Shown here: one piece after another, positions 3,125 to 19,662 of the stretch | Position numbering within the stretch: the stretch's first letter is position 1 | How the letters are laid out: each line of letters starts with the position of its first letter | Origin: Hyphomicrobiales bacterium | GTDB lineage: Bacteria; Pseudomonadota; Alphaproteobacteria; Rhizobiales; Rhizobiaceae | Assembly (NCBI GenBank): GCA_900474095.1 | Contig: UCOA01000025.1 | Span: forward strand, 1 to 64,000 | Direction: 5' to 3' | Length of the DNA: 64,000 nucleotides | Translations under genes and position numbers: made by a program | The notes under the pieces: generated by a model | Database searches by the model: none | Seen by the model: only the letters and a program-made list of their open reading frames with translations | What the model was told of the DNA's origin: nothing

Positions 3125-4027
3125 TCAGCGCTTCACCAGCTTCAGCTTTTCGCGCACTTCCGCCGGGCCGATGACCCGCGCGCCCATGCCCTCGATGACC
3201 GTCACGGCCTTTTCGACGAGTTGGGCGTTGGTGGCGAGCTGGCCCTTGCCGACATAGAGGTTGTCTTCAAGCCCGACGCGGACGTTGCCGCCGGCCAACA
3301 CGGCTGCTGCCGGATAGGCGAGCGCATTGCGGCCGATCGAGAAGGCTGAGAAGGTCCAGTTGTTCGGCACGTTGTTGACCATTGCCATGAAGGTGTTGAG
3401 GTCGTCGGGCGCGCCCCACGGAATGCCCATGCAGAGCTGGATGAGAACCGGATCCTCGATCAGGCCTTCCTCGACGAGCTGCTTGGCAAACCACAGGTGG
3501 CCGGTGTCGAAGGCTTCGATTTCCGGGCGGACGCCGAGTGCCGTCATCTGGCGAGCCATTTCGCGCAGCATCGACGGCGTGTTGGTCATGACGTAATCGC
3601 CGAGCGAGAAGTTCATCGTGCCGCAGTCGAGCGTGCAGATTTCCGGCCGGCATTCGGCGACGTGGGCGACGCGTTCGGTGGCGCCGGCCATGTCGGTGCC
3701 CTGCGGATTGAGCGGCAGCGGGCTCTCGACATTACCGAAGATCAGATCGCCGCCCATGCCGGCGGTGAGGTTCAGCACGACGTCGACATCGGCGGAGCGG
3801 ATACGGTCGGTCACTTCCTTGTAGAGGTCGAGGCGGCGGGCGGCGGCTCCAGTTTCCGGATCGCGCACATGGCAATGGGCAACGGCTGCACCCGCCTTGG
3901 CCGCCTCGATCGCCGCATCGGCGATCTGCTTAGGCGTGATCGGCACATGGGATGATTTGGAAACGGTGTCGCCGGACCCGGTCACGGCACAGGTGATGAA
4001 AACGTCGCGGTTCATGCTCAGCGGCAT
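3125..4027 (-). CDS. 3-keto acid cleavage enzyme (BKACE, DUF849), 3-dehydrocarnitine type
   Basis: A 300-residue protein of the beta-keto acid cleavage enzyme family. The zinc-binding HxH appears as VAHCHVRDPETG near residue 50. Family members condense a beta-keto acid with acetyl-CoA to give acetoacetate and a new CoA ester. With 3-dehydrocarnitine this yields betainyl-CoA, which the thioesterase half of the neighbouring fusion would hydrolyse. An in-frame extension to 4066 exists, but the ATG at 4027 is preceded by GGGGAGG at good spacing and the protein then starts as expected (MPLSMNRDVFITCAV). It is the first gene of the leftward operon. Confidence 0.88.
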   Translation of the reverse strand: MPLSMNRDVFITCAVTGSGDTVSKSSHVPITPKQIADAAIEAAKAGAAVAHCHVRDPETGAAARRLDLYKEVTDRIRSADVDVVLNLTAGMGGDLIFGNVESPLPLNPQGTDMAGATERVAHVAECRPEICTLDCGTMNFSLGDYVMTNTPSMLREMARQMTALGVRPEIEAFDTGHLWFAKQLVEEGLIEDPVLIQLCMGIPWGAPDDLNTFMAMVNNVPNNWTFSAFSIGRNALAYPAAAVLAGGNVRVGLEDNLYVGKGQLATNAQLVEKAVTVIEGMGARVIGPAEVREKLKLVKR

Positions 4028-4138
4028 AACAGCCTCCCCTTGTTCTTGTCGTGCATTACGAGCCAAGAACGAGTGCTCTGCTTTTCCTTTTCGGACGTAT
4101 GTTATACATTCTCAGAACACAAAGCCGGAGATGGACGA
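4028..4138. promoter_or_regulatory. Divergent promoter region with inverted repeat, carnitine operon/regulator
   Basis: This 111-bp gap separates the leftward carnitine operon from the rightward GlxA-type regulator. A perfect inverted repeat GTTCTTG (4042-4048) / CAAGAAC (4064-4070) with a 15-bp spacer lies in it, close to the operon's ribosome-binding site. A TATACA hexamer near 4102 could be a -10 element for the regulator gene. Binding by the neighbouring regulator is inferred from position only. Confidence 0.45.
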
Positions 4139-5110
4139 ATGCTTGCCCCACGGGACGAAACTCAGCATATCGATCTACTCGTGTTGCCGGAGACCAATCT
4201 GATCCTCGTCGCATCGGTGATCGAACCCTTGCGCGCCGCAAACCGCATTGCCGGAAAGGCGCTCTACGACTGGGACATCTTCAGTCCGGACGGCAACGCG
4301 ATCGAAACCAAGAGCGGCATTCCGATCCCGGTCGCCGGGCCTTTTCGGCCACAGAAGGAAACTGCACCGCTTTTTGTTCTGTCGAGTTACAACTGGCAGG
4401 CCTATACCACCTCGCATCTGCGCATGCAGCTTTCCCAGACGGCGCGCTATCGCGAGGTAATTGCCGGCATCGAGTCAGGCTCGTGGATGCTGGCCGAGAC
4501 CAGCCTGCTCGATAATTATTCCGCGACGACCCACTGGGAGGATTTCGAGGATTTCACTGGCGCCTATCCGCAGATCACCATGGTGCACGAGCGGTTCGTC
4601 ATCGACGGCAAGCGCATCACCACCGGCGGATCGCTGCCGACGCTCGACCTGATGCTGGAATTGATCCGCCGCCAGCACAGCTATTCGCTGGCGCTCGAAG
4701 TCTCCCGCCTGTTCATCTATGAGCAGGAGCGCACGCGCGGCGACCTCCTGCAGGTGCCCGCGATCGGTAACATGCGTATTCTCGACGCGCGCGTTGGCGC
4801 GGCCGTCAAGCTGATGGAGGAGACGGTCGATGCGCCGCTGACCCTGACGCGTCTCGCCAAGCGGGCTGGCGTCAGCGCTCGTCATCTGCAGGACCTGTTC
4901 CAGGAGACGATGGGTGTCGCGCCGCATGCGCACTATTTGGCGCTGAGGCTGAACGCGGCGCGGCGCAAGGTCATCGAGACGCGGGCCGATTTCGCCGATA
5001 TCGCTGCCGCCACCGGCTTCAACTCATCCTCTGCCTTTTCACGCAGCTACCGCGCCCATTATCGGGAAAGCCCGAGCGAGACGCGCAGGCGACTGAAGCT
5101 CAAGAACTGA
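4139..5110 (+). CDS. GlxA/CdhR-type AraC-family regulator of carnitine catabolism
   Basis: A 323-residue regulator with an N-terminal DJ-1/PfpI-like (class I glutamine amidotransferase-like) domain, residues about 10-180, and a C-terminal AraC HTH domain, residues about 220-320 (LTRLAKRAGVSARHLQDLF, then AATGFNSSSAFSRSYRAHY). This architecture matches regulators of carnitine and betaine catabolism such as CdhR and GbdR. The ATG at 4139 is preceded by GGAG eight bases upstream; longer in-frame starts lack such a site and would overlap the divergent gene's leader. Its divergent position suggests that it activates the carnitine operon when carnitine or a metabolite is present. Confidence 0.82.
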   Translation: MLAPRDETQHIDLLVLPETNLILVASVIEPLRAANRIAGKALYDWDIFSPDGNAIETKSGIPIPVAGPFRPQKETAPLFVLSSYNWQAYTTSHLRMQLSQTARYREVIAGIESGSWMLAETSLLDNYSATTHWEDFEDFTGAYPQITMVHERFVIDGKRITTGGSLPTLDLMLELIRRQHSYSLALEVSRLFIYEQERTRGDLLQVPAIGNMRILDARVGAAVKLMEETVDAPLTLTRLAKRAGVSARHLQDLFQETMGVAPHAHYLALRLNAARRKVIETRADFADIAAATGFNSSSAFSRSYRAHYRESPSETRRRLKLKN

Positions 5111-5125: not shown

Positions 5126-5158
5126 GATTCAAGTTGCGAAAGATTTGCGAGTTGAATC
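5126..5158. terminator. Weak inverted repeat between convergent genes
   Basis: GATTCAA (5126-5132) and TTGAATC (5152-5158) flank 19 nt between the ends of the convergent GlxA-type and LysR-type regulator genes; the second arm overlaps the stop region of the LysR-type gene. No long T-run follows on either strand. It may be a weak bidirectional transcript end. Confidence 0.25.
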
Positions 5159-6359
5159 AGCGCTTTGGCGAGTGGCTTGAAGGTTCTGAATCAGAGGGTG
5201 GCGCCGACATCATCGTCAGCATGGCCTCGCCGGCCTGCCGCGACAGGGCGTTTTTCTGCCAGGCGAGCGAAAGGCTTTGCATATAGCCCGGCCCCAGCCT
5301 GCGCATCGCCGGGGCATTTCTGACACGCGCGGCGGAGCTTTCGGGAAGCATCGAAAGATAGCCGTGGTTCATCACCAGGTTGAGGATGACGGGGATGGAA
5401 TCGACCTCGATAACCGTCAGGCGGTTTCGTTCCTGCTCGCCTAAAATTTTGCCAATGAAATGCTCTGCCTGTTGGCGAAGACCGCTCTTCAGGCTGGGAA
5501 CGGCGATCGGGTTGGCTTGAAGCAGCCCACCGATATCCTCGCCGTGCGTGGTAAACAGCGAGGGATGTCCGGCCAACGCCAATGGTGTGCGGGAAATGAG
5601 CCGCCCCTCGAATTCTGCCGGGAATGTTTCGAGATCGAGCAGCACGACGTCGAACCGGCGGCTCTTCAGCCCGGCGATCAACTCATCCGCGGTGGTGCTG
5701 GAGATAAAAAGCGGCTGGCGCGGGCGGGCCCGGTGCCATTCGGCGGTCAGCGCCGCGAGCATGCGGGCGATTTCGCTTTCCGGGCCGAGTGGCATGACCG
5801 AGCCGAAACGCCATGTGGCGGCCGTTCGTCGGAACCGGTCGCCGGACGCACGCGAAAGTCGCCGCCAGATATCAAACAGGCTCTCGGCGATCGGGATCGC
5901 CGCCAGGCCCTCTGGCGTACAAGCGATGCCGGACGGGGAGCGGATCAGCAGATCATAGCCAAGATCCCGTTCGAGCTCGGCCATTTGTCGGGTCAACTGC
6001 GGCTGACCGGCGCCCGCTATCTTTGCAGCGCCACGAATGCTGCCGCTGCGCGCGACGGTGACGAAACGGTCAAGGGCCGCGAGACTGATCGAGGGCACGC
6101 CGACCGATGGTGCGCCGGGCGACAGAAGCGCTTGTACGGCGCGGTTCGCCGCCGCCAGATCGGCCTGCCGGCTTTGTGCCTCCAGCGTCGGCACGAGAAT
6201 GCCGCCCTCGCGCCTGACGAGCGGTACTGCGATTGCGGCTTCGAAACGCTTGAGCGCTGCGCTGACGGTTGCCACCGGTCGGCCTGCGGCCTTTGCGGCC
6301 CGACGAATTCCTCGCTCTTCTAGAATGGCATGAACAAGGGCGAGCGTGGCGGTATCCAT
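5157..6359 (-). CDS. LysR-type regulator with two HTH domains (ergothioneine cluster)
   Basis: About 400 residues, against roughly 300 for a normal LysR protein. A first LysR-like HTH segment is visible at about residues 5-60 (ILEERGIRRAAKAAGRPVAT, then SAALKRFEAAIAVPLVRREG), and a second, canonical one at about 90-150 (LAALDRFVTVARSGSIRGAA, then GQPQLTRQMAELERDLGYDL). A LysR substrate-binding domain follows to the C-terminus. Two tandem HTH units in one LysR chain are unusual. The ATG at 6359 has an AAGGA upstream; an ATG at 6371 is possible but lacks spacing. It is divergent from the ergothioneine-type operon and is therefore its likely regulator. Confidence 0.8.
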   Translation of the reverse strand: MDTATLALVHAILEERGIRRAAKAAGRPVATVSAALKRFEAAIAVPLVRREGGILVPTLEAQSRQADLAAANRAVQALLSPGAPSVGVPSISLAALDRFVTVARSGSIRGAAKIAGAGQPQLTRQMAELERDLGYDLLIRSPSGIACTPEGLAAIPIAESLFDIWRRLSRASGDRFRRTAATWRFGSVMPLGPESEIARMLAALTAEWHRARPRQPLFISSTTADELIAGLKSRRFDVVLLDLETFPAEFEGRLISRTPLALAGHPSLFTTHGEDIGGLLQANPIAVPSLKSGLRQQAEHFIGKILGEQERNRLTVIEVDSIPVILNLVMNHGYLSMLPESSAARVRNAPAMRRLGPGYMQSLSLAWQKNALSRQAGEAMLTMMSAPPSDSEPSSHSPKR

Positions 6360-6499
6360 GATCTGTTTCATCCTTGCGAAGGCAGAGGCGGGACAAAGGC
6401 AGGGTGATCCGAAATGGATATCTCATGTTCCGTTTTTGGGATATATCACAATCGGGAAGATTGGGCATAGCATGTGCGGCATCAAACGTGAGTCAAAGC
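6360..6499. promoter_or_regulatory. Divergent promoter region with LysR-type inverted repeat
   Basis: The gap between the double-HTH regulator and the lyase gene holds an imperfect inverted repeat, ATATCTCA (6418-6425) and TGGGATAT (6437-6444), matching in seven of eight positions with an 11-bp spacer. LysR proteins usually bind such interrupted dyads, so this is the best operator candidate for the regulator and the operon. Confidence 0.4.
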
Positions 6500-8038
6500 A
6501 TGCACGCATCGGTGAAAACCATTACGCTGACTGGCAATCCGCTCGACTTCTCCGCGCTGGAGAAGATCGGTTCCGGCCTCCATATGCCGATGGTGGCCGA
6601 GCAGTCTTTCGCGCGGGTCAAATCCGCACATACGGTCATCGCCGACCGCCTCGCCATGGGATTGCCGGTCTACGGCGCCAACACCGGCGTCGGCTCGATG
6701 AAGGACCGCCTGTGGACGGTCGATGATCTCACGGAGTTCAACGCTGCGCTCGTCAAGGCCCACCATTTCGGCACCGGCGAATTGTTTTCCCAGGCGATCG
6801 TCCGCAAGGCCATCGCCATTCGCATCAATACCGCGCTTGGCGGCCATACCGGCTGCAGCGTCGATCTCGTCAAGGCGTTTCTCGGCCTTCTGGAACGCGG
6901 CGTCGTGCCTGCCGTCCATCGTCATGGTTCGATCGGCTGCGCCGATATCGGTCTGATGGGGCAGGTGGCTTCCGTTTTGATCGGCACGGGTGAGGCATTT
7001 TTCCGTGGTGAGTTGCTGCCCGCCGCCGAAGCCCTGCGCCGCGCCGAGCTTAAGCCCTTCGTCATGCAGCCGCGCGATGCGCTGGCAGCGCTCAGCGTCA
7101 ACGCGACGGCTTTCGCCGCGGCGACCGATGTACTGCGCCAAGCAGCTTCCGCCGTTCGTGTCTCGATGGCGACCGGCCTGATGTCGTCACTCTCCTTGGG
7201 CGCTTCCGCCGATCCGTGGCGGGTTGCCGCGACGCTTGCGACGCGCGGCGAAGCGCTGGTCGGCTCCTGGCTCTACGGCCAGTCCAACGTAGTCGACTGG
7301 CCGCTGCCGACGGCGATCCATGATCCCTTGAGCCTGCGCATGACTGCGCAGGTGTTCGGGGCTGCCGTGGATACGCTTCTCGTCGCCGCCGAACGGTTGG
7401 TCGATGCAACCTATCTGTCCGACGACAATCCGGTGGTGCTCGGCGGCCAGGTGCACGCGTCGGGCGCCTCGCTGCCGCTGACGACCACGCTCTATATCGA
7501 GACGGCGCAGATCGCCTTCTCCCATGTGGCGCGCAACATGCTGAACCGCTGCATCCTGCTCTCGAACGGCGTGCGGCGGAACCTGCCGATCAATCTCGTC
7601 GCTCCCGGTGAGGTGGCGAGCGGACTTGGGCCGCTGATGAAACTGGTCGTCGAACTCTATATGCGCGTCCAGTCGATGGCGGTGCCGCTGTCGGCACAGT
7701 CGATCGTCGTCGCCGGAGGTCTCGAGGAGGAAGCGACCTTCCTGCCGCTCATCGTCGAGCGCATGGAGATGCAGGTGCGCGATCTGCGTCAGATGGCGGC
7801 GATCGAGGCGCTGCTGTCGGCACAGGCGATCGATCTGCTCGGTGACAAGCCTCAGGGCGTGACGCAGATAGCCTATGATTGCGTCCGGGCACTGAGCCCG
7901 GTCTACCTGAAGGATCGGCCGCTCTCAAAGGAGATCGAGGCTCTTCACGAAGTATTTGCATCCGAGGATTTGCTGTTCGCCCTGGTCGCTGCGGCTCCGA
8001 TGCCTGAATTCGACGATTTCTTCGCGCTCGGCCAATAA
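6500..8038 (+). CDS. Ergothionase-like lyase (HAL fold, MIO triad absent)
   Basis: A 512-residue protein of the histidine/phenylalanine ammonia-lyase superfamily. The active-site loop LPVYGANTGVGSM (Tyr58) corresponds to YGVNTGFG of HutH. Where HutH has GSVG-ASG, which cyclises into the MIO electrophile, this protein has GSIG-CAD (Cys147-Ala148-Asp149), so MIO cannot form. Ergothionases are MIO-less members of this fold that eliminate trimethylamine from ergothioneine to give thiourocanate. The four following catabolic genes fit the remaining steps exactly, which makes that assignment much stronger than an ammonia-lyase call. The ATG at 6500 has only a weak site; a GTG at 6488 is an alternative. 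First gene of the operon. Confidence 0.78.
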   Translation: MHASVKTITLTGNPLDFSALEKIGSGLHMPMVAEQSFARVKSAHTVIADRLAMGLPVYGANTGVGSMKDRLWTVDDLTEFNAALVKAHHFGTGELFSQAIVRKAIAIRINTALGGHTGCSVDLVKAFLGLLERGVVPAVHRHGSIGCADIGLMGQVASVLIGTGEAFFRGELLPAAEALRRAELKPFVMQPRDALAALSVNATAFAAATDVLRQAASAVRVSMATGLMSSLSLGASADPWRVAATLATRGEALVGSWLYGQSNVVDWPLPTAIHDPLSLRMTAQVFGAAVDTLLVAAERLVDATYLSDDNPVVLGGQVHASGASLPLTTTLYIETAQIAFSHVARNMLNRCILLSNGVRRNLPINLVAPGEVASGLGPLMKLVVELYMRVQSMAVPLSAQSIVVAGGLEEEATFLPLIVERMEMQVRDLRQMAAIEALLSAQAIDLLGDKPQGVTQIAYDCVRALSPVYLKDRPLSKEIEALHEVFASEDLLFALVAAAPMPEFDDFFALGQ

Positions 8039-8053
8039 CGAAGGGAAGCGCCG

Positions 8054-9433
8054 ATGTCTGATTTCGATCTGGTTCTGAAGGGCACAGTCGTTCTTCCCGA
8101 TCGCCTCGTCGAGGGCGGGCACGTGGCTGTGCGCGATGGCAAGATCGCCTTTGTCGGCCAAGGCGAGATGCCTGCCGCCCGCGAACGTCATGATCTCGGG
8201 CAAGCGCTTATCCTGCCCGGCGCCATCGACGCGCAGGTGCATTCGCTGAGCCAGAAGGATCAGGAGGATTTCATCTGGTCGACGCGCTCCGCTGCCGCTG
8301 GCGGCGTCACAACAATCGTCGACATGCCCTATGACGAGGGCAACTTGGTCTGCTCGGCGCAGGCCGTGAAGCGCAAGATCGCTCACGCCGGCCCGCAGGC
8401 ACGTATCGACTTTGCACTCTACGGCACCATTGACCCCGAGGAAGGTCCGACAAGGATCGGCGAAATGGTCGCTGCCGGCGTCGCGGCCTTCAAGTTCTCG
8501 ACCTTCGGCACCGATCCGAAACGCTTTCCGCGCATCCCGTCGGGTCTTCTCGAAGATTGTTTTCGCGTCATTGCGCCGACCGGGCTGGCGGCGGGTGTCC
8601 ATAACGAGGACGATGAGGCTGTGCGCGCGGCGATCGACAAGGTGCGGGCGGCGGGTATCACCGATTACCGGGCGCATGGCCTGTCGCGGCCGCCGCTGAC
8701 GGAGTTGCTCGCCACCAACCAGATCTATGAAACGGGGGCTGCGACCGGCTGCCCGGCCCATGTGGTGCATTGCTCTGTGGGGCGAGGCTACGAGATTGCC
8801 GCTGCCTACCGGGCGCAGGGATACCGCGCCACCATCGAATGCTGCATTCACTATCTCGTTCTCGACGAGGAGAACGATGTCAAGCGGCTTGGCGGCAAGG
8901 CGAAGATCAATCCGCCGATCCGGCCGCGCGCCGAGGTGGAAAAGCTCTGGCGGCATGTGGCTGACGGCAACGTCACGCTGGTCTCGACCGATCACGTCAG
9001 CTGGTCGGAAAACCGCAAGACCAATCCGGACATGCTGGCTAATGCTTCCGGCGTGCCGGGGCTGGAAGTGATGATCCCGCTCTTCGTCAAGGGTGCGCTG
9101 GAGCGGGGCATTCCTTTGACCCGTGCTGCGGAACTGATGGCGCTCAATCCGGCCCGGCATTTCCGTCTCGATCACCGCAAGGGTGCGCTCGAAGGCGGCA
9201 AGGACGCCGACATCGCCGTTCTGACGCCGGAGCCCTACACCTACGATGCGGCTGAAAGTGGCAACAACGTCGTCGGTTGGTCGCCGTACAACGGCGTCCG
9301 GCTGCCGTGGCGCGTGGCCGCCACCTACAACCGCGGCAGGCTTGTCTTCGACGGCAAGTCCGTGCTCGCCGAGCCGGGGGCCGGCGAGTTTATCCGGCCT
9401 CTGCCGAGCCTGCCGCTGCGCGAGGCCGTGTGA
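8054..9433 (+). CDS. Hydantoinase-like cyclic amidohydrolase (hydantoin propionate step)
   Basis: A 459-residue amidohydrolase of the dihydropyrimidinase/allantoinase group. Visible metal-site elements are IDAQVHS near residue 63, a lysine in AFKFSTFGTD for carbamylation, HNEDDEAV, HVVHCSVG and the aspartate in LVSTDHVSW. The first metal motif is QxH rather than the common HxH, a variant also seen in some dihydroorotases. In this operon it should open the hydantoin ring of hydantoin-5-propionate to give N-carbamoyl-glutamate. GGGAAG precedes the ATG at 8054, 15 nt after the lyase gene. Its stop overlaps the next start. Confidence 0.8.
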   Translation: MSDFDLVLKGTVVLPDRLVEGGHVAVRDGKIAFVGQGEMPAARERHDLGQALILPGAIDAQVHSLSQKDQEDFIWSTRSAAAGGVTTIVDMPYDEGNLVCSAQAVKRKIAHAGPQARIDFALYGTIDPEEGPTRIGEMVAAGVAAFKFSTFGTDPKRFPRIPSGLLEDCFRVIAPTGLAAGVHNEDDEAVRAAIDKVRAAGITDYRAHGLSRPPLTELLATNQIYETGAATGCPAHVVHCSVGRGYEIAAAYRAQGYRATIECCIHYLVLDEENDVKRLGGKAKINPPIRPRAEVEKLWRHVADGNVTLVSTDHVSWSENRKTNPDMLANASGVPGLEVMIPLFVKGALERGIPLTRAAELMALNPARHFRLDHRKGALEGGKDADIAVLTPEPYTYDAAESGNNVVGWSPYNGVRLPWRVAATYNRGRLVFDGKSVLAEPGAGEFIRPLPSLPLREAV

Positions 9434-10701
9434 TGGCGGTGATCGAAACCAATCTACCGGTTGATGCACGCCGCATCGCCGACATCATCAAGGGGCTGGC
9501 GCGGATCACCGAGCCGGACCGTCCGTATACGCGGCGCGCCTTCACGCCGCTGTTTCTGGAGGGGCGAGCCTTTCTCGAGCAGCGCTTCAAGGCCGCCGGT
9601 CTCGAAACCCGGATCGATGCTTCTGGAAACCTGATCGGCCGCCGCAAGGGCCGGAAGTCCGGTCTCGGCACGATCATGCTTGGGTCGCATTCCGACACGG
9701 TGCCGGAGGGTGGAAGGTTCGATGGTATCGCTGGTGTGGCGGCAGCACTCGAGGTCGCGCACGCGTTGAGCGATGCCGGCATCCGGCTCGATCATGATCT
9801 GGAGGTAATCGATTTCCTGGCGGAAGAAGTCTCGGTCTTCGGCGTTTCCTGCATCGGCAGCCGCGGCATGGCGGGGTTGCTACCTGACGGATGGCTCAGC
9901 CGGACTCATGGGGAATTAACGCTGCGGCAAGGCATGGTCGACGCCGGCGGCGATCCGTCGCGCCTGGCCCAGCAAAAGCGGTCCGACATCAAGGCCTTTC
10001 TGGAACTTCATATCGAGCAAGGGCCGGTGCTCGAAGCCGAACGCTGCGACGTCGGGATTGTGACGGCCATTGCCGGGATCACCCGGATCGAAACCTTGTT
10101 CGAGGGCCAGGCTGATCATGCCGGCACCACGCCGATGGGCCGCAGGCGCGACGCGCTGACTGCGGCTGCAAGAATGGTAGGCGAGGTCGAGAGGCTCGGC
10201 ATTGCGTTTTCAATGGGCGAGGGGCATTTCACGGCGACGGTGGGCGAATTTTCGATCGAGCCGAATGCGGCCAATGTCGTGCCGTCCCGAGCCCGGCTGC
10301 TGATCGATGCGCGGGCGGAGCAGCGAGCCGACATGGAGCGCTTCATCGCCGAGATCGACCAGCTCGCCGTCGATATCCAGCGCGACACAGGCGTCTCGAT
10401 TGCCTCGCCAAAATTGATATCGGACAATTTCCCGACGCCCGCCGATCCGCTAGTGCTGAGCAATCTCGAACAAGCCTGCGATCGCTTTGGCGCCAAACAT
10501 CGCCGCATGGCTTCTGGCGCCGGGCATGACACCGCCTGGATGGCGCGGATTTCGAAGGCGGCGATGATCTTCATCGCCTGTCGCGAGGGCCGGTCGCACA
10601 CGCCGGACGAATGGGCCGACAATGACGATATCGCTCTCGGAACGGCGGTGCTGTTCGAGGCCGTCAGGAAACTCGATGCGGATTTACAGGGAGCGCGCTG
10701 A
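9433..10701 (+). CDS. M20-family N-carbamoyl amino acid amidase
   Basis: A 422-residue zinc hydrolase of the M20 / allantoate amidohydrolase-carbamoylase group. The metal ligands are recognisable: HSDTVPEGGRFDG, DFLAEEVSVFG, LHIEQGP and GAGHDTAWMA. The QADHAGTTPMGRRRDAL segment marks the dimerisation-domain boundary. Its expected role here is hydrolysis of N-carbamoyl-L-glutamate to glutamate, ammonia and CO2, the last step of ergothioneine breakdown. The ATG at 9433 overlaps the stop of the hydantoinase gene, and its own stop overlaps the next start, so the three genes are translationally coupled. Confidence 0.82.
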   Translation: MAVIETNLPVDARRIADIIKGLARITEPDRPYTRRAFTPLFLEGRAFLEQRFKAAGLETRIDASGNLIGRRKGRKSGLGTIMLGSHSDTVPEGGRFDGIAGVAAALEVAHALSDAGIRLDHDLEVIDFLAEEVSVFGVSCIGSRGMAGLLPDGWLSRTHGELTLRQGMVDAGGDPSRLAQQKRSDIKAFLELHIEQGPVLEAERCDVGIVTAIAGITRIETLFEGQADHAGTTPMGRRRDALTAAARMVGEVERLGIAFSMGEGHFTATVGEFSIEPNAANVVPSRARLLIDARAEQRADMERFIAEIDQLAVDIQRDTGVSIASPKLISDNFPTPADPLVLSNLEQACDRFGAKHRRMASGAGHDTAWMARISKAAMIFIACREGRSHTPDEWADNDDIALGTAVLFEAVRKLDADLQGAR

Positions 10702-11798
10702 TGGGCCGGGTACTCACAGAAAAAGACGTCGAGGCGGCGGTCAAGGGTGGCTCGGTCTATGCCGCCGGCGGCGGTGGATGGGCGCATCATGGACGTATGC
10801 TCGGCTATGCCGCGGTCTCGATCGGCAAGCCGGAGCTGGTGTCCATCGATGAGCTTGATGCCAATGACTGGGTGGCGACGGCTGCTGCGATCGGTGCGCC
10901 GGCCTCGACCACGCCCTGGGAAATGCGCGGCGTCGATTACGTCAAGGCGGTGCAACTGCTGCAGAAGGCGCTTGGCGAAAAGATCGCCGGGCTGATCGTC
11001 GGTCAGAACGGCAAGTCGTCGACGCTGAACGGCTGGCTGCCGTCGGCCATTCTCGGAACGAAGGTGGTCGATGCCGTCGGTGACATCCGCGCCCATCCGA
11101 CCGGAGACATGGGATCGATCGGTCTTGCTGGTTCGCCCGAGCCGATGATCCAGACGGCGGTCGGCGGCAACCGCGAGGAAAATCGCTATATCGAGCTCGT
11201 CGTGCGCGGCGCGACTGCCAAGGTCTCGCCGATCCTGCGTACAGCCTCCGACATGTCCGGCGGGTTCATCGCGTCGGCTCGCAATCCGGTGCGTGCATCC
11301 TACGTCAAGGCCAATGCGGCGCTCGGCGGCATCTCGCTCGCCCTGACTCTTGGTGAGGCGATCATCGCGGCGGAAGGCAAGGGCGGTAGCGCGATCATCG
11401 ACGCCATCGTCAAGACGACCAATGGCGCGATCCTCGCCAAAGGCACGATTACCGACAAATCGGTCGTCTATACCAAGGAAGCCTTCGATATCGGCACGGT
11501 GACCCTGGGGAAGGGCGATGACTCTACGGTACTCCACGTCATGAACGAATACATGGCGGTGGAGAATGCTGGAGCTGTGCGGCTCGCGACCTTCCCGGAT
11601 GTCATCACGACGCTGTCGCCCGAAGGCGAACCGTTGAGTGTCGGCCAGTTGCAGGTGGGCATGAATATTTTCGTGCTGCATGTGCCGAAGACGGTGATCC
11701 CGCTCGCTTCCAGCGTGCTCGATCCGTCGGTCTATCCGTCGGTCGAAAAGGCCATGGGGATTGAGCTGGCGCGCTATGCTTTGTCCGGCCGGATATAA
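10701..11798 (+). CDS. DUF917 protein, probable thiohydantoin desulfhydrase
   Basis: A 365-residue member of the DUF917 / S-methyl-thiohydantoin desulfurase family, recognised from VYAAGGGGWAHHGRMLGY near the N-terminus and the DAVGDIRAHPTGDMGSIGL segment near residue 125. In known ergothioneine degraders a protein of this family removes sulfur from 3-(5-oxo-2-thioxoimidazolidin-4-yl)propionate to give the hydantoin. The gene overlaps the carbamoylase stop by one base (TGATG), so it belongs to the same operon. The role is inferred from family plus context. Confidence 0.75.
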   Translation: MGRVLTEKDVEAAVKGGSVYAAGGGGWAHHGRMLGYAAVSIGKPELVSIDELDANDWVATAAAIGAPASTTPWEMRGVDYVKAVQLLQKALGEKIAGLIVGQNGKSSTLNGWLPSAILGTKVVDAVGDIRAHPTGDMGSIGLAGSPEPMIQTAVGGNREENRYIELVVRGATAKVSPILRTASDMSGGFIASARNPVRASYVKANAALGGISLALTLGEAIIAAEGKGGSAIIDAIVKTTNGAILAKGTITDKSVVYTKEAFDIGTVTLGKGDDSTVLHVMNEYMAVENAGAVRLATFPDVITTLSPEGEPLSVGQLQVGMNIFVLHVPKTVIPLASSVLDPSVYPSVEKAMGIELARYALSGRI

Positions 11799-11810
11799 GG
11801 AGAGCGAGCC

Positions 11811-12140
11811 ATGTCGCGCGACGCCGGTCTCGAGGAACTGATCAGGCAGGAGCTTGGTGAAAGACCGACGCTTTCCGAAAAGCCGATGTTCGGTGGCCTT
11901 GCCTTTCTCCTCGACGGTAATCTCCTTTGCGGCGCGCGCAACGACGGCATGCTGGTGCGCCTCGGCAAGGGCAATGATGGCTGGGCGCTGGCGCTTGCCG
12001 GCATCGAACCCATGGTGATGGGTGACCGTCAGATGAATGGTTGGGTGCGCGCTGGCGCGAAGGCCTATGGCGACGATGCCCTGCGCAATCGCCTGCTCGA
12101 TGCGGCACTCGCCTATGTTGTCTCCCTGCCGCCGAAGTGA
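11811..12140 (+). CDS. TfoX N-terminal domain protein
   Basis: A 109-residue protein consisting only of a TfoX/Sxy N-terminal domain (SEKPMFGGLAFLLDGNLLCG, then a GWVRAGAKAYGDD-like tail). The domain occurs in competence regulators but also in many short proteins of unknown role. It lies 12 nt after the DUF917 gene, with GGAGAG before its ATG, and ahead of the urocanase-like gene, so it is probably co-transcribed. No function in the pathway can be assigned from sequence. Confidence 0.75.
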   Translation: MSRDAGLEELIRQELGERPTLSEKPMFGGLAFLLDGNLLCGARNDGMLVRLGKGNDGWALALAGIEPMVMGDRQMNGWVRAGAKAYGDDALRNRLLDAALAYVVSLPPK

Positions 12141-12153
12141 ACGACAAACGATG

Positions 12154-12208
12154 CGTACCTCCTCTTCGCGCTAGTTCTTCCGCGGGAGCGGCGCGAGAGA
12201 CAGGTACG
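12154..12208 (+). promoter_or_regulatory. Long hairpin in operon gap before the urocanase-like gene
   Basis: CGTACCT (12154-12160) pairs with AGGTACG (12202-12208), and an inner stem pairs the run around 12162-12171 with GCGCGAGAG (12191-12199). It sits in the only long gap (97 nt) of the operon and ends just before the AAGAAGGAAG ribosome-binding region. There is no T-run, so it may be an mRNA-processing or stability element rather than a terminator. Confidence 0.4.
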
Positions 12209-12237
12209 ATCGCAGATAAGAAGAAGGAAGAACCGCG

Positions 12238-13899
12238 ATGCCGAAACCCAACCCACGCCACCCCAATTTCCCGATCCCCGGCGGCACGGAGTTGCGTGCC
12301 AAGGGCTGGCGGCAGGAGGCGCTGCTGCGGCTTCTGGAAAACGTGCTTTCAGTCGGCGAGGACCCGGACAATCTGATCGTCTATGCGGCGCTCGGCAAGG
12401 CGGCGCGCAACTGGGCGTCCCACAAGGCGATCGTCAAGACGCTTTTGGAAATGGACGAGGACCAGACGCTGGTGATCCAGTCCGGCAAGCCGGTGGGGCT
12501 CTTGAAGACCCATGCGAAGGCGCCGCTCGTCATCATGGCCAATTGCAACATCGTCGGCCAATGGGCGAAGGCCGAGGTGTTCTATGAACTGGAGAGGCAG
12601 GGGCTGATCTGCTGGGGCGGCCTGACCGCCGGCGCCTGGCAGTATATCGGCAGCCAGGGCGTCATCCAGGGTACCTATGAAATCTTCATGCGCATCGCCG
12701 AAAACCGGTTCGGCGGCGATCTCGCCGGCCGTTTCATCCTGACGGCCGGTCTCGGCGGCATGGGTGGCGCACAGCCGCTGGCCGGTCGCATGGCGGGGGC
12801 TGCGATCCTCTGCATCGACGTTGATCCCGTCCGGGCCGAAAAACGCAAGGCCATCGGCTATCTCGAACATGTGGCACCGGATCTCGATACGGCGCTTGCG
12901 ATGATCGATGAGGCGGTCAAGGAAAAGCGCGCCACCTCCATTGGCCTCGTCGGCAATGCAGCGGCGCTCTACCCGGAAATTGCCAAGCGCGGCATCGTGC
13001 CCGATATCGTCACCGACCAGACCTCGGCGCATGATCTGGTCTACGGCTACGTGCCGAAGGGCATGAGTATCGAAGAGGTGAAACGGCTGCGTGTCGAGGG
13101 CCAGGGCCAGTTGATGGCCGCCAGCCGCGCCTCGATCGTCGATCATGTGAGGGCCATGCTGGAGTTTCAGGGGAAGGGCGCGGAAGTCTTCGACAACGGC
13201 AACCTGATCCGCACCCAGGCGCGGGAAGGCGGCGTTGCCAACGCATTCGACATCCGCATTTTCACCGAGGCCTATCTCAGGCCGCTGTTTGCCCGCGCCA
13301 TCGGGCCTTTTCGCTGGATGGCGCTGTCGGGCGAGGAGAGCGACATCGCCCGCATCGACGACCTGCTCCTCACGATGTTTCCGGACAACAAGATCGTCAC
13401 CAACTGGATCCGGCTGGCACGGGAAAACGTGCCCTTCGAGGGCCTGCCCGCCCGCATCGCCTGGCTCGGTCACGGCGCGCGCACGGAACTCGCGCTCGCC
13501 GTCAATACACTGGTCGCTTCCGGCGACCTCAAAGGCCCGATCGCCTTTTCCCGCGACCATCTCGACGCCGGCGCCATGGCGCATCCGAACATCATGACCG
13601 AGCGGATGAAGGACGGCTCCGATGCCATCGCCGACTGGCCGCTGCTTGATGCCATGCTGCTCTGCTCCTCCATGGCCGATCTCGTCGCCGTCCACTCCGG
13701 CGGCGGTGGTTATGCCGGATATATGACCAGCTGCGGCGTGACCGTGGTGGCCGATGGCACGGAGAGCGGAGCGGAACGGCTGAACCATGCGCTGACCAAC
13801 GATACGTCGCTGGGCGTCATCCGTTACGCAGATGCGGGATACGAGGAGTCGATGGACGAGATCGGCAGGAAGGGGATCGGGTATATCGGCTTGAGTTGA
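12238..13899 (+). CDS. Urocanase paralogue, probable thiourocanate hydratase
   Basis: A 553-residue protein of full urocanate-hydratase length, with the NAD-binding ILTAGLGGMGGAQPLAGRM and conserved YIGSQGVIQGTYE and VTDQTSAHDLVYGY motifs. True urocanases have a conserved active-site cysteine in GLPARICW (Cys410 of the Pseudomonas putida enzyme); here the motif is GLPARIAW, with Ala408. The pathway for ergothioneine requires hydration of thiourocanate by a urocanase homologue, and the four other steps are encoded just upstream, so thiourocanate hydratase is the best call. Ordinary HutU of histidine degradation is less likely, since no hut genes lie nearby. Confidence 0.8.
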   Translation: MPKPNPRHPNFPIPGGTELRAKGWRQEALLRLLENVLSVGEDPDNLIVYAALGKAARNWASHKAIVKTLLEMDEDQTLVIQSGKPVGLLKTHAKAPLVIMANCNIVGQWAKAEVFYELERQGLICWGGLTAGAWQYIGSQGVIQGTYEIFMRIAENRFGGDLAGRFILTAGLGGMGGAQPLAGRMAGAAILCIDVDPVRAEKRKAIGYLEHVAPDLDTALAMIDEAVKEKRATSIGLVGNAAALYPEIAKRGIVPDIVTDQTSAHDLVYGYVPKGMSIEEVKRLRVEGQGQLMAASRASIVDHVRAMLEFQGKGAEVFDNGNLIRTQAREGGVANAFDIRIFTEAYLRPLFARAIGPFRWMALSGEESDIARIDDLLLTMFPDNKIVTNWIRLARENVPFEGLPARIAWLGHGARTELALAVNTLVASGDLKGPIAFSRDHLDAGAMAHPNIMTERMKDGSDAIADWPLLDAMLLCSSMADLVAVHSGGGGYAGYMTSCGVTVVADGTESGAERLNHALTNDTSLGVIRYADAGYEESMDEIGRKGIGYIGLS

Positions 13900-13997: not shown

Positions 13998-14804
13998 ATG
14001 ACGTCGAGCTTCAATGTCCGCAGCGCGTCTGGTTATGAACAGCTCATGGGGCGCTGGAGCCGCCAGCTCGCACCGCTTCTGATCGACTTCGCAGGTCTGT
14101 CGGATGGCGAACGTGTCCTCGACGTGGGGTGCGGGACTGGCAGCCTGACATTTGCGCTTCCGAAAGCTGCCAATGTCAGCGAGATTGCCGCGATCGACTA
14201 TTCGCCTGTCTTTGTCGAGGAAGCGACACGGCGCAACGCCGATCCGCGGATCACCATACAGGAAGCAGATGCGTGCGCCCTTCCGTTCAAGGACGGGTAC
14301 TTCGATCGAGCGCTGTCGCTTCTGGTTCTCCATTTCGTACCCGAGGCGGGAAAGGCGATCTCGGAAATGCGGCGCGTCGTGCGTCCGGGCGGCGTGGTCG
14401 CCGCCGCGGTCTGGGACCACCTCGGCGGCATGCCGGGCATGCGAATGATGGTGGATACCGTGGCCATGCTGGACGAAAATGCGCGCCAACTGCGGAGCCA
14501 CTATTGTTTCCAGCCGATGATGCGGCCGGACGAAATGAAGCAGAGCTTCATCGAGCATGGGCTCACGGAGGTGGAGCAGGCGTCGCTCCTGATCCGAATG
14601 GACTATCAGTCGTTCGAAGATTACTGGGAGCCCATTGCCGCGGGCGAGGGGCCGCTGGGAAAGTATGTGGCTGCGCTTGGCCCTGCACAACGGAGTGTGA
14701 CTGACGCTGCGGTGAAGGCCGCTTATGAGGCGGGTCAGCCGGATGGGCCAAGATCGTTTGCAGCGGTGGCCTGGGCTAGTCGGGGCGTCGTTCCATTCGC
14801 CTGA
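13998..14804 (+). CDS. Class I SAM-dependent methyltransferase
   Basis: A 268-residue Rossmann-type methyltransferase with motif I VLDVGCGTGSLTFAL near residue 47, followed by AIDYSP and EADACALPF. The substrate cannot be told; UbiE/SmtA-like small-molecule methyltransferases look similar. The ATG at 13998 follows GGAGGAGG at ideal spacing. It lies 98 nt after the urocanase-like gene in the same direction, so read-through from the ergothioneine operon is possible, but no link in function is visible. Confidence 0.7.
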   Translation: MTSSFNVRSASGYEQLMGRWSRQLAPLLIDFAGLSDGERVLDVGCGTGSLTFALPKAANVSEIAAIDYSPVFVEEATRRNADPRITIQEADACALPFKDGYFDRALSLLVLHFVPEAGKAISEMRRVVRPGGVVAAAVWDHLGGMPGMRMMVDTVAMLDENARQLRSHYCFQPMMRPDEMKQSFIEHGLTEVEQASLLIRMDYQSFEDYWEPIAAGEGPLGKYVAALGPAQRSVTDAAVKAAYEAGQPDGPRSFAAVAWASRGVVPFA

Positions 14805-15752: not shown

Positions 15753-16814
15753 TTATTCGCGAATGATCAGGAGATCGCTTGCCGTGAAGCGCAGCGTAAC
15801 GACCTCGCCCACGGCGGGCGGGTTGCGGCCCGGTGCGTTGAACATGTCGAAGGAGATGACGGGCTCGCCCACCTTCATGCGCGTGCGGATGACCGAACCG
15901 AGGAAGTTGCTGGAGATGACCTGCCCGGTCAGTGCCGTATCGCCCCGCGCACCTTCAGCAATCGAGCCCGCTTCCGGCCGCAGCGCCAGCGAAACCTTGT
16001 CGCCGGCCTTTGCCGGGCCGAGTGGCTCCCGCAGCGTGATATCCTGGTCTCCGATCGAGATGCGATTTGCCGTGGGATCGACGACCGTGCCTTCGATCAG
16101 GTTCAGCGTGCCGACAAAGGAGGCGACGAAGCGGGTCGCCGGTCTGTTGTAGATGTCGAACGGCGTGCCGATCTGGTCGGCGCGGCCGGCGTTCATGACG
16201 ACGATTCGGTCGGAGATCGACAGCGCCTCTTCCTGGTCGTGCGTGACGAAGACGGTGGTGATGCCGAGCTGCTGCTGGATCATCCGGATTTCCTCGCGCA
16301 GGGAGACGCGGATCTTGGCGTCGAGGGCCGACAGCGGCTCGTCGAGCAGAAGCACCTGAGGTTTCGGTGCCAGCGCACGGGCGAGCGCCACGCGCTGCTG
16401 CTGGCCGCCGGACATCTGGTAGGGAAAGCGGTCGGCAAGGTGGCCGAGATGGATGAGCCCCAGCATTTCCTTGACGCGGGCATCGATGGCCGCCTTGTCC
16501 ATGCCGGCGACCTTCAGGCCGAAGGCAACGTTGTCGTGCACGGTCATGTTCGGGAACAGCGCATAGGCCTGGAAGACCATGCCGATATTGCGTTGGTTCG
16601 GCTTCAGTTCGTTCTGGTTGCGGCCATTGATGACGATCGTTCCCGCAGATGGCGCCTCAAAGCCGGCGACCATGCGCAGGACGGTGGTCTTGCCACAGCC
16701 CGACGGACCGAGAAAGGAGACGAATTCTCCCTTTTCGATCGCCATGTCGAAATCCTTGACGACCTGAACGGGACCGAAGCTCTTCTGAATGCCGGTAAGT
16801 GTGAGAAAGGACAT
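15753..16814 (-). CDS. ABC transporter ATPase (PotA/FbpC-like)
   Basis: A 353-residue ATP-binding subunit with Walker A GPSGCGKTT near residue 38, signature MSGGQQQRVALARAL, Walker B VLLLDEPLSALD and the switch histidine in FVTHDQEEAL. A C-terminal TOBE-like regulatory domain (about 280-350) is present. The subfamily serves Fe3+, spermidine/putrescine or 2-aminoethylphosphonate importers. It is the last gene of a leftward operon encoding a binding protein and two permeases. The real substrate is not readable from sequence. Confidence 0.88.
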   Translation of the reverse strand: MSFLTLTGIQKSFGPVQVVKDFDMAIEKGEFVSFLGPSGCGKTTVLRMVAGFEAPSAGTIVINGRNQNELKPNQRNIGMVFQAYALFPNMTVHDNVAFGLKVAGMDKAAIDARVKEMLGLIHLGHLADRFPYQMSGGQQQRVALARALAPKPQVLLLDEPLSALDAKIRVSLREEIRMIQQQLGITTVFVTHDQEEALSISDRIVVMNAGRADQIGTPFDIYNRPATRFVASFVGTLNLIEGTVVDPTANRISIGDQDITLREPLGPAKAGDKVSLALRPEAGSIAEGARGDTALTGQVISSNFLGSVIRTRMKVGEPVISFDMFNAPGRNPPAVGEVVTLRFTASDLLIIRE

Positions 16815-16828
16815 GGACGATCAATACC

Positions 16829-17617
16829 TCAGGGCCTGGAAGGAGCCGATTTGTTGAGACGGGAGGCGAGCTGCAAAAGCGCCATCGACAGCCAGGTGAT
16901 GGCAAAGGCGATGATCGCAAGCGCCGGCGGCTCATAGGCGCGGTTGGCGCCGATCAGCTGCAGATAGGGACCGAAAGCCGGGCGGTTGAGCAGCGATGGC
17001 ATGGTGAATTCGCCGATGACGATGGCAAAGGTGATGAAGGCGCCGGAGAGAACACCGCTCATGACGTTCGGAAAGATGCATTTGAACATGATCGTCGGCC
17101 AGGATGCGCCGAGGCTCTGGGCCGCTTCCGTCAGGGTGCCGACATCGATGGTGCGCATAGCGGTATCGACCGAGCGATACATGTAAGGCAGCGACAGCGT
17201 CATGAACGAGAACATCAGAAGGGCATCGGTGCCGCGCGCCGAACCGGTAAAGGGGATGAAGGACGAGGAGTTGTAGAGACGCAGATAGCCGAAAACGATG
17301 ACGATTGCCGGAATGACCAGCGGCATCAGGGTGATGAACTCAACGACCGGCCTCATCTGCGGCAGGCGCAGGCGGACCCAGTAGGCCGTCGGCACCACCA
17401 GCAGAACGCCGAAGATGATGGTGAGGATTGCCATGACGATCGAGTAGCTGAAGGATTCACGGAACTGGACATCCGAGAACACCGAGCGATAGGCGTCGAA
17501 GGAATATTCTCCGCGGCGCATGCGCAGCGAGAATTCGAACGTCGCGATCAGCGGAACGACGAAATAGGAGGCGCCGAAAAGGATGGCGATCCAGGCGCCG
17601 ATTTTCTGTGTCTTCAT
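16829..17617 (-). CDS. ABC transporter permease (second subunit)
   Basis: A 262-residue inner-membrane permease with about six transmembrane segments and the cytoplasmic EAA loop (LTEAAQSLGASWPTIMFKC), which contacts the ATPase. It is homologous to PotC/FbpB-type subunits. The ATG at 17617 overlaps the stop of the preceding permease gene (ATGA), pointing to translational coupling; a GTG at 17626 is an alternative start. It is separated from the ATPase gene by 14 nt. Confidence 0.85.
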   Translation of the reverse strand: MKTQKIGAWIAILFGASYFVVPLIATFEFSLRMRRGEYSFDAYRSVFSDVQFRESFSYSIVMAILTIIFGVLLVVPTAYWVRLRLPQMRPVVEFITLMPLVIPAIVIVFGYLRLYNSSSFIPFTGSARGTDALLMFSFMTLSLPYMYRSVDTAMRTIDVGTLTEAAQSLGASWPTIMFKCIFPNVMSGVLSGAFITFAIVIGEFTMPSLLNRPAFGPYLQLIGANRAYEPPALAIIAFAITWLSMALLQLASRLNKSAPSRP

Positions 17618-18486
17618 TTCTGCCACCGTTCGGCGCGCATGCGGAGCCAGATATAGATGAGGTTGGAAATGCCGGTGATGACGATCATGCCGAGCGCCAA
17701 AGCGTAGCCGAGGTTCGGATTGTGCAGCACGTCGCCGCGGATCTGGGCGTAGAGCTGGATCGGCACGATGTTGAAAGTCGAACCGGTCAGCGAATAGGCG
17801 GTCGCGATGGCGCCGAACGAGTTGGCGAACAGAAGCAGCGTCGTGCCGAGGATGCTAGGAAACAGGATCGGCAGCGCCACTTTCATCCAGTATTGCGTGT
17901 TGGTCGCGCCAAGGATCTCAGCCGCTTCGCGCCATTCCTTCTTCAGCCCGTCGAGCGCAGGCGTGATGATCAGCACCATCAGCGGAATCTGGAAGTACAT
18001 GTAGGTGATGGTCAGGCCAAGGAAGCTCAACAGATTGAAGCCCGTGGCGTAGAGATTGATACCGAACCAGTCACGCAGCAAAATCGTCACGAGGCCGGTG
18101 CGGCCGAGCGTGGCGAGAAAGGCAAAGGCCAGCGGCACGCCGGCGAAGTTCGAGGCGACACCGGAAAAGGTCAGGAGCGAGGAGCGGATCCAGGAGGGCA
18201 GGCCGCCGAGCACGACGGCCCAGGCAAGGAAGAAGCCGATGAATGCACCGCCCAGTGACGAAGCCAGGCTGACTTTTATCGAAATCCAGTAGGAGGCAAT
18301 AATCTTGTCGGTGAAAAGGCCCCGGATGTTGTCGAAGGTGAATTCTCCGGCCGGATTGAGAAAGGCACCGGTGACCAGATAGAGCGTCGGGGCGATCAGG
18401 AACATGACTGCGAAGAGCAGGAAAGGTGTGATGCCGAGCCAATCGATGGCCGTTTTCTTCAAATCAATGGCCTGTTTGGCGCTCAT
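17614..18486 (-). CDS. ABC transporter permease (first subunit)
   Basis: A 290-residue permease of the PotB/FbpB type, with several hydrophobic segments beginning near residue 15 (WLGITPFLLFAVMFLIAPTL) and the EAA loop REAAEILGATNTQYWMKVAL near residue 205. It pairs with the next permease to form the membrane channel of the importer. A strong hairpin separates it from the upstream binding-protein gene, which may lower its expression relative to that protein. Confidence 0.85.
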   Translation of the reverse strand: MSAKQAIDLKKTAIDWLGITPFLLFAVMFLIAPTLYLVTGAFLNPAGEFTFDNIRGLFTDKIIASYWISIKVSLASSLGGAFIGFFLAWAVVLGGLPSWIRSSLLTFSGVASNFAGVPLAFAFLATLGRTGLVTILLRDWFGINLYATGFNLLSFLGLTITYMYFQIPLMVLIITPALDGLKKEWREAAEILGATNTQYWMKVALPILFPSILGTTLLLFANSFGAIATAYSLTGSTFNIVPIQLYAQIRGDVLHNPNLGYALALGMIVITGISNLIYIWLRMRAERWQK

Positions 18487-18509
18487 CCTGAAACCGTTCG
18501 GTAAAATTG

Positions 18510-18542
18510 AAAAACAGCCTTCCCGCGCGGTCGCGGGAAGGC
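18510..18542 (-). terminator. Intra-operon hairpin after the binding-protein gene
   Basis: GCCTTCCCGCG (18517-18527) and CGCGGGAAGGC (18532-18542) form an 11-bp stem with a 4-nt loop; on the minus strand it is followed by TGTTTTTC. It stands between the binding-protein and first permease genes. Such partial terminators are common in ABC operons and give an excess of binding protein. Confidence 0.65.
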
Positions 18543-18558
18543 CTTGGTAGGTCAGGTC

Positions 18559-19662
18559 TTACTGCACGTTGGCGCCGACGACGCTGTCCCAGCCCTTGGT
18601 GATGACTTCCTTGTAGGCTTCCTGTTCTTCGAGCGTCGGGAACACGGCCTTTTCATAGGATGCGGCCGGCGGCAGCTTGGCGAGCAGGTCCTGCGGGATC
18701 TTGCCGTTCTTGGCGAGATCGTTGAAGCGGATCGGGTGGCAATAGCCCTTCAGCCAGCCGAGCTGACCTTCGTCGGAATAAAGGTATTCCATCCACAGCT
18801 TGGCAGCATTCGGGTGGGGGGCGTAGGCCGAGATCGCCTGGACGTAGACACCGGCGACAACGCCGGTCGCCGGGACGACGACGTCGACCGGCGGGTTTCC
18901 GGCAAGCGTGTCGCGGTCGGCGAGCGCGTTGTAGTCCCAGCGCAGGATGATCGGCGTCGTGCCCTGGGCGAGCGGAGCGGACTTGCCGATGACTGGGACG
19001 AAGTTACCCTTCGAGTTCAGTTCCTTGAAGAAGGCAAGGCCCGCTTCGCCGGCCTTGGCGACGTCGCCGCCAGCAGCCGAAAGACCGGCTGCGAAAACGC
19101 CGGAGATGGCCTGGTTTGCGGTGCGCGGGTCACCGGCAAGGGCGACCATGTTGGCGAATTCAGGCTTCAGGAGGTCGGCCCAGTCCTTCGGGCTTTCCTT
19201 GACGAGGTCCTTGTTCACTTCGAAGGCCATAACGCCATAATAGTCGCCATACCAGTAGCCTTCAGCGTCCTTGGCCGAATCCGGGATCGTGTCCCAGGTT
19301 TCCACCTTGTAAGGCTGGATGAGCTTTTCAGCCTTTGCGGACGGGCCGAAGGAGAGGCCGACGTCGATAACGTCCGGTGCCTGGTCGCCCTTGTTGTCCT
19401 TGTTGGCCTTGATGGCTTCGATTTCGTCACCCGAACCGGCGTCCGGGTTGAGTTCGTTAACGGTCAGGCCGTACTTGGCCTTGAAGCCTTCGATGACGCC
19501 GCCGTAGCCGCACCAGTCGTGGGGCAGGGCGATCGTGGTCAGCGTGCCTTCTGCCTTGGCAGCAGCAATCAGTTCGGCGCTCGGTTCGGCGGCGGCAATG
19601 GCGGTCGATGCCATGACCATGGCGGTCGAAAGCGAAAGCAGGCGGCGTATATGTGAAATCAC
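18559..19662 (-). CDS. Periplasmic substrate-binding protein of ABC importer
   Basis: A 367-residue extracellular solute-binding protein of the family-1/PotD-AfuA kind. An N-terminal signal peptide is visible (basic start, hydrophobic core, cleavage near AIAAAEP at about residue 25). Conserved lobes include DVIDVGLSFGPSAKAEKLI and YWYGDYYGVMAFEVN. It should capture a small solute, such as a polyamine, Fe3+ complex or related compound, in the periplasm for the permease pair encoded downstream. It is the first gene of the leftward operon, with AGAGGAG before the ATG. Confidence 0.85.
   Translation of the reverse strand: MISHIRRLLSLSTAMVMASTAIAAAEPSAELIAAAKAEGTLTTIALPHDWCGYGGVIEGFKAKYGLTVNELNPDAGSGDEIEAIKANKDNKGDQAPDVIDVGLSFGPSAKAEKLIQPYKVETWDTIPDSAKDAEGYWYGDYYGVMAFEVNKDLVKESPKDWADLLKPEFANMVALAGDPRTANQAISGVFAAGLSAAGGDVAKAGEAGLAFFKELNSKGNFVPVIGKSAPLAQGTTPIILRWDYNALADRDTLAGNPPVDVVVPATGVVAGVYVQAISAYAPHPNAAKLWMEYLYSDEGQLGWLKGYCHPIRFNDLAKNGKIPQDLLAKLPPAASYEKAVFPTLEEQEAYKEVITKGWDSVVGANVQ

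Follow-up and report, generated by a model that had tools for sequence, protein, structure and literature searches.

Bacterial catabolism of ergothioneine, an antioxidant found in mushrooms, is a known pathway of five steps, reportedly reconstituted in vitro by Beliaeva, Leisinger and Seebeck in 2021 (ACS Chem Biol). It resembles histidine utilisation (hut) in that a lyase of the histidine ammonia-lyase (HAL) fold is followed by a hydratase of the urocanase fold, and it has a paralogous counterpart in the route for S-methyl-ergothioneine. Ergothionase, the lyase of step 1, is reported from several bacteria, including Agrobacterium radiobacter, and is induced in Burkholderia given ergothioneine as sole nitrogen source (PMC13405746). 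Here we describe a six-gene operon at positions 6500-13899 (plus strand) of a 64,000-nucleotide stretch of DNA from a Hyphomicrobiales bacterium of the Rhizobiaceae (assembly GCA_900474095.1, contig UCOA01000025.1, positions 1 to 64,000; hereafter the window). Taken as a whole, the locus is very probably best explained as an ergothioneine-utilisation operon under a divergent LysR-type regulator with two DNA-binding modules; the substrates, the effector, the direction of regulation and the binding to the site are what we infer from sequence.

The pathway is not new, and the operon adds another instance of it. All five enzyme classes are present, four of them above equivalog cut-offs; the differences lie in the tandem-module regulator, in a TfoX_N gene within the operon and in a lyase divergent from the Treponema denticola ergothionase. 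In contrast to hut, the operon lyase lacks the Ala-Ser-Gly (ASG) triad that gives rise to the methylidene-imidazolone (MIO) group, and the genome has its own canonical HAL, together with a urocanase paralogue, on a separate contig (C236).

Results

The operon and its enzymes

The features of the locus are:

5157..6359, minus strand: LysR-type regulator with two DNA-binding modules and one effector-binding domain (PF00126 in two stretches, PF03466; likely start MDTATL at 6359)
6418..6444, plus strand: putative composite operator, comprising a GCAT-like element (ATAT here), N4, TGTTC (6426-6430), N4 and TTTGGGATAT (6435-6444)
6465..6473, plus strand: GCATAGCAT, probably a promoter element (from the intergenic alignment; Rhizobium, Ensifer and Shinella loci, at near-constant spacing from the operator)
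6500..8038, plus strand: MIO-less HAL-fold lyase, step 1, putative ergothionase (PF00221, 256.3 bits; GSIGCA-DIG; best PDB match 6s7j; K68, K381, E409)
8054..9433, plus strand: ErtD, hydantoin-5-propionate amidohydrolase, step 4 (NF058538, 797.7 bits, cut-off 600)
9433..10701, plus strand: ErtE, N-carbamoyl-L-glutamate amidohydrolase, step 5 (NF058540, 610.6 bits, cut-off 520; NF009531, 682.9, cut-off 486)
10701..11798, plus strand: DUF917/S-Me-THD protein, thiohydantoin desulfurase, step 3 (NF058529, 594.0 bits, cut-off 440)
11811..12140, plus strand: small TfoX_N-domain protein (PF04993, 40.8 bits)
12238..13899, plus strand: thiourocanate hydratase, a urocanase paralogue, step 2 (NF058530, 1041.9 bits, cut-off 930)

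The six genes run in one direction, from the lyase ATG at 6500 to the hydratase stop at 13899, in the order lyase, hydantoinase (ErtD), carbamoylase (ErtE), DUF917 protein, TfoX_N protein and urocanase paralogue. An initial annotation, made from the letters of this stretch, had placed five enzyme genes here in this order and one direction beside a divergent regulator; all five are intact on the plus strand, the coordinates are exact, and the LysR-family gene adjoins them. The TfoX_N gene and the doubling of the regulator's DNA-binding module were absent from it. TGATG overlaps at the ErtD/ErtE and ErtE/DUF917 junctions are consistent with a single transcript; the gaps between lyase and ErtD, DUF917 and TfoX, and TfoX and hydratase measure 15, 12 and 97 bp. 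Scans for sigma-70 promoters and terminators gave matches no more numerous than in shuffles. Pfam assigns Lyase_aromatic, amidohydrolase, Peptidase_M20, the N and C domains of S-Me-THD (DUF917) and the N, central and C domains of Urocanase; we know of no role for a TfoX_N protein in the ergothioneine pathway.

A scan of genome contigs yielded 46 related loci from Rhizobium, Pararhizobium, Sinorhizobium/Ensifer, Shinella and other Rhizobiales, with lyase identities of 68-94%. The five enzyme genes keep identical order and strand in 45 of these (the remaining one, L063, ends at a contig edge), and for this reason the arrangement is not one of chance. By a scripted criterion the LysR gene is divergent and adjacent in 44 of the 46 loci; a TfoX_N gene is matched between the DUF917 and hydratase genes in 32.

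The earlier assignment of steps 2 to 5 holds: ErtD, ErtE, the desulfurase and the hydratase all exceed the cut-offs of ergothioneine-specific NCBIfam equivalog models. It had also been expected that generic annotation would scatter all five enzymes. For these four it does not, as NCBIfam now names them. For the lyase no ergothionase model came up, and its matches are to HAL-type models only, all below cut-off (hutH, 207.4 bits, cut-off 539.15). The other urocanase of the genome scores 680.8 bits on the hydratase model NF058530, below cut-off, and no imidazolonepropionase was recognised among the scanned genes.

The lyase

As the initial annotation had stated, the lyase is MIO-less: GSIGCA-DIG stands where the ASG triad is expected. 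The triad is likewise absent from the cluster-linked lyases of other genomes and kept in canonical HALs (the lyase match at locus L097 misses the motif). Its loss, together with the sub-cut-off scores on HAL-type models, led us to reject a canonical histidine or aromatic amino-acid lyase. The closest PDB entry by sequence is the T. denticola ergothionase 6s7j (E 9.5e-57), which also heads a fold search with the predicted structure (mean predicted local distance difference test, pLDDT, 70.4; Z 33.1, root-mean-square deviation 3.2, 471 aligned residues), effectively tied with HAL at Z 32.2. The lyase and the T. denticola enzyme have Lys381 and Lys68 in common (relatives carry Lys or Arg at the latter position), and neither lysine occurs in three aligned canonical HALs; Tyr58 and Glu409 are present in all of these and do not discriminate.

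Comparison with a characterised ergothionase, which had been proposed as a check on the lyase, thus divides. The T. denticola enzyme (6s7j, 6s7q) shares the MIO-less HAL fold and the two lysines, but it is only about 26% identical and occupies a separate, long-branched position in the tree, in which the lyases of Alphaproteobacteria are placed, with support, in a group of their own. Assignment to step 1 consequently draws on motif, fold and context rather than on orthology. On these grounds we infer that the lyase is an ergothionase, converting ergothioneine to thiourocanate and trimethylamine.

No EgtD-family protein (PF10017) was matched in the genome, so ergothioneine is probably taken from outside, and by this evidence the host looks like a consumer rather than a producer. 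Contig C236 also carries, near the canonical HAL and urocanase, a second HAL paralogue (L055:9420-10859) with GSAGY---LTHNAH at the site of the MIO triad; this paralogue is also present in relatives (L130, L131).

A LysR-type regulator with two DNA-binding modules

The regulator frame (5157-6371, 404 residues) encodes two complete DNA-binding modules, at residues of about 5-83 and 97-177, followed by the effector-binding domain. Both match HTH_1 above cut-off (38.9 bits for module 1, 54.8 for module 2), and in a survey that scored 150 of 184 candidates in the genome this was the only frame with two such matches among the 75 found. From module 2 through the effector domain the protein aligns with ordinary LysR-type regulators, which combine a winged helix-turn-helix (HTH) and linker helix (HTH_1) with LysR_substrate; it differs in the additional complete winged HTH and linker helix at its N-terminus, the usual subunit having one module. 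The AlphaFold model likewise has, ahead of the effector domain, two complete units, each made up of three helices, a wing and a linker helix (mean pLDDT 78, predicted TM-score 0.48). A structure search matched only residues of about 90-395; BenM and CbnR are among the full-length LysR structures with which residues 95-394 align. A PDB sequence search with the N-terminal module gave only weak LysR-type matches (E 0.23 and worse).

The doubling is not peculiar to the window. Using a module profile derived from seven of the genome's ordinary LysR proteins, we found two modules in 66 of 72 regulator rows (62 initially, and four more, L064, L065, L067 and L100, with full frames), compared to one in each of the seven ordinary proteins, whose single match is a control for module number only; the 72 rows include the window protein and count G236 and G207 twice each. 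The rows without two modules at E <0.01 are L097 (a cut frame), L037, L145, L147, L154 and L156. In the recognition-helix region of module 1, residues S37, A38, A39, R42 and E44 are invariant across 27 aligned regulators.

By title, no tandem-module LysR protein was recognised in the literature searched on LysR proteins with two HTH modules, a search whose coverage excluded most subscription journals and which is no proof of absence. In one source the corresponding wording refers to MarR and AraC proteins (PMC6018408).

A candidate composite operator

When the intergenic regions between the LysR and lyase genes are aligned, TTTGGGATAT, a GTTC upstream of it and GCATAGCAT downstream stand out from diverged sequence. 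Every one of the 46 loci (960,325 bases in all) has a single copy of the nine-base core TTGGGATAT, on the lyase strand; in 45 this copy precedes the lyase match by no more than 400 bp, and in L097, where that match starts late, it is at the corresponding place (9941). In the genome of the window the pattern GTTCN{3,5}TTTGGGATAT has a single match, the site in question. It occurs once per genome in seven of 22 genomes searched, each time just upstream of the lyase, and not at all in the reversed control; the seven include G187 and G023, in which the regulator gene sits on another contig. A second conserved element, GCAT-N4-YGTNC, stands at fixed spacing within the site.

Distant clusters have relaxed forms of the operator in the equivalent promoters (Paracoccus L036, Rhizobium SL42 L037, G210, G282, G567 and G236); L037 has two copies, of which the first precedes the lyase and the other ErtD. 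Others were recognised by eye in G155, G243, G050, G087 and G591 and at three transporter loci. The strict pattern is present in 39 of 75 listed entries (74 different sequences, L160 being listed twice).

The regulator and the pathway occur together

The regulator tracks the pathway across genomes. In a search that scored the best four to six candidates per genome, the regulator (E 1e-20) occurs in 18 of 297 genomes of the order; the hydratase, above cut-off, occurs in 17, and 15 genomes have both. In a sample of the phylum, searched in the same way, the hydratase occurs in six and the regulator in seven of 398 genomes; all six hydratase genomes carry the regulator, and the seventh is G591. 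The two samples overlap, their genomes share descent and the scoring covered the best few candidates in each genome, so these counts are not independent trials.

Among the 15 shared genomes of the order the regulator lies beside the lyase in ten. It stands beside the DUF917-hydratase pair in G207, at the head of a transporter-ErtD-DUF917-hydratase run in G236, and divergent from an OsmF-type transporter in G187, G023 and G281. An OsmF-type betaine ABC (ATP-binding cassette) transporter is also found between lyase and ErtD in seven of 16 fetched loci of the order, and two more have the transporter in a stretch that is cut before a lyase. Three order genomes have the regulator and no hydratase above cut-off: in G119 the regulator adjoins a 36% lyase, in both G050 and G087 it adjoins ErtD.

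A variant gene set with a UbiD-family decarboxylase

Divergent to the regulator of G087 stand genes for ErtD (777.6 bits), for a lyase of the HAL fold, for a decarboxylase of the UbiD family (289.9 bits, cut-off 244.85), for the flavin prenyltransferase UbiX and for ErtE (568.1 bits, cut-off 520). G050 has ErtD, lyase and UbiD beside a related regulator; in G591, from the family of the window genome, the regulator separates lyase (79%), UbiD (80%) and UbiX from ErtD and ErtE. Neither hydratase nor DUF917 was matched in these stretches, and the three genomes contain no hydratase above cut-off. The lyases of G050 and G087 lack both the ASG triad and the second lysine. This UbiD, at 1e-80, is present in two of five genomes searched from G087's family. 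Variant clusters beside a tandem-module LysR gene are:

L159:10785-16962: HAL-fold lyase, UbiD, ErtD, UbiX and ErtE
L158:9428-14909: HAL-fold lyase, UbiD and ErtD
L179:8311-15515: HAL-fold lyase, UbiD, ErtD, UbiX and ErtE

Co-occurrence suggests that a prenylated-flavin step may here take the place of hydration and desulfurisation.

Neighbouring genes and related clusters

Two mutually divergent genes adjoin the operon at 3125-5110, one encoding a BKACE (beta-keto acid cleavage) protein and the other a regulator of the AraC family; both lie within the fetched flanks of all 46 loci. The best NCBIfam match of the AraC-family protein is GbdR (212 bits, below the cut-off of 480), and the pair may be connected with the metabolism of betaine or carnitine. 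On the other side, the SBP_bac_6-type ABC transporter at 15753-19662 is not claimed as a dedicated transporter (its ATPase is downstream in at least 13 of the 46 loci). The gene at 13998-14804, found behind the hydratase in ten of the 46 loci, was left out of the operon core; its product is an S-adenosylmethionine-dependent methyltransferase, and a class I methyltransferase is likewise annotated near the lyase of L037.

Several clusters depart from the complete set. In L043, L045 and L052 an ABC transporter of the polar-amino-acid type accompanies the hydratase and DUF917 genes, and an ergothionase-like lyase is missing alongside; possibly such clusters scavenge thiourocanate from other organisms. 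On a plasmid of Rhizobium sp. CC-CFT758 an ert-like cluster (L035:11693-12735) has hutC and an amino-acid ABC transporter, again with no lyase alongside, and its DUF917 gene is matched as two pieces and may be broken. The best whole-genome lyase matches of G207 and G236 all bear ASG, while G294 has a divergent lyase, L116. This and L119 (G281) are HAL-fold lyases without the ASG triad (GSIGAG-DLGLCAH and GSIGAA-DLAPLAH); their identity to the window lyase is about 30%, and they lie on contigs other than that of the hydratase.

Discussion

The working model that best accommodates these data is as follows. The lyase would remove trimethylamine from ergothioneine to give thiourocanate, which the urocanase paralogue would hydrate to the thiohydantoin; the DUF917 protein would then release sulfur to give hydantoin-5-propionate, whose ring ErtD would open before ErtE releases glutamate. 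The divergent LysR protein, with two modules per subunit, most likely binds GCAT-N4-YGTNC-N4-WWTGGGATAT before the lyase, each module presumably reading one element of the operator, and ergothioneine or thiourocanate on the effector domain would switch the operon on. A tandem-module regulator with a composite operator would be a new variation on the LysR type. That it defines a distinct class, with two modules per subunit reading GCAT-N4-YGTNC and TTGGGATATCCCA, with near single-site specificity in a genome of more than 70 HTH_1-bearing frames, and carried along with ergothioneine catabolism, the betaine-type transporter and the UbiD variant, we propose tentatively, at a little short of an even chance.

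A number of observations weigh against this model. The tree keeps the lyase apart from the T. denticola ergothionase, and ErtE scores higher on the generic Zn-dependent hydrolase model NF009531 than on its own. Of the 22 genomes searched, 15 lack the exact operator pattern; by eye, no operator was recognised in G207, nor a clear one in either G119 or G288, and in G207 the recognition helix of module 2 also deviates (TQPTLGRR as against GQPQLTRQ). The first module is not in frame in G210. Two of the 17 hydratase genomes of the order, G244 and G294, have no regulator match at 1e-20 (G294 has a weaker match beside the genes), and the small number of candidates scored per genome limits the order and phylum counts.

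Other explanations must be set beside it. The hydratase and desulfurase are paralogues of enzymes of the S-methyl-ergothioneine route and also match the models of these, yet they remain under the cut-offs (744.1 bits of 880 on NF058531 and 282.2 of 450 on NF058532, respectively) while exceeding those of the ergothioneine models. On these scores we dropped degradation of S-methyl-ergothioneine, which strikes us as extremely improbable. We also regard as unlikely a lyase that acts on some other betaine or 2-thio-imidazole, such as 2-thiohistidine, and thereby feeds the pathway. Its low identity to the characterised ergothionase, its own group in the tree and the clusters without an ergothionase-like lyase alongside would fit such a substrate, but sister operons carry a betaine-type transporter and the downstream enzymes pass the cut-offs of ergothioneine models. 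Moreover, loss of the MIO triad suits a leaving group other than ammonia, as in ergothionase.

The regulator poses a more serious difficulty, in that module 1 might be a relic without DNA contact, leaving module 2 to read an ordinary LysR operator accompanied by promoter elements. Consistent with this are the lower score of module 1, its absence from the frame in G210 and its very weak match in L037, a locus which nonetheless has two operator copies; TTGGGATATCCCA by itself, moreover, fits the T-N11-A LysR box. A relic is harder to reconcile with the invariant recognition-helix residues of module 1, with its retention in most of the regulator rows and with the second element at fixed spacing. 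We consider it doubtful, though well within reach, that module 1 has lost its function.

An ergothioneine-utilisation operon under a two-module regulator would extend the known pathway by genes and a regulator in plant- and soil-associated Rhizobiaceae, in a host whose genome has no EgtD-family match. Operator and regulator together would offer a sequence handle for ergothioneine-responsive genes, the short site being unique in this genome. The variant set (lyase, UbiD, ErtD and ErtE, joined in two of the three genomes by UbiX) may represent a so far unrecognised way of reaching hydantoin-5-propionate. Finally, if it is true that two modules read two elements, then LysR-type proteins would have a further, novel means of achieving specificity.

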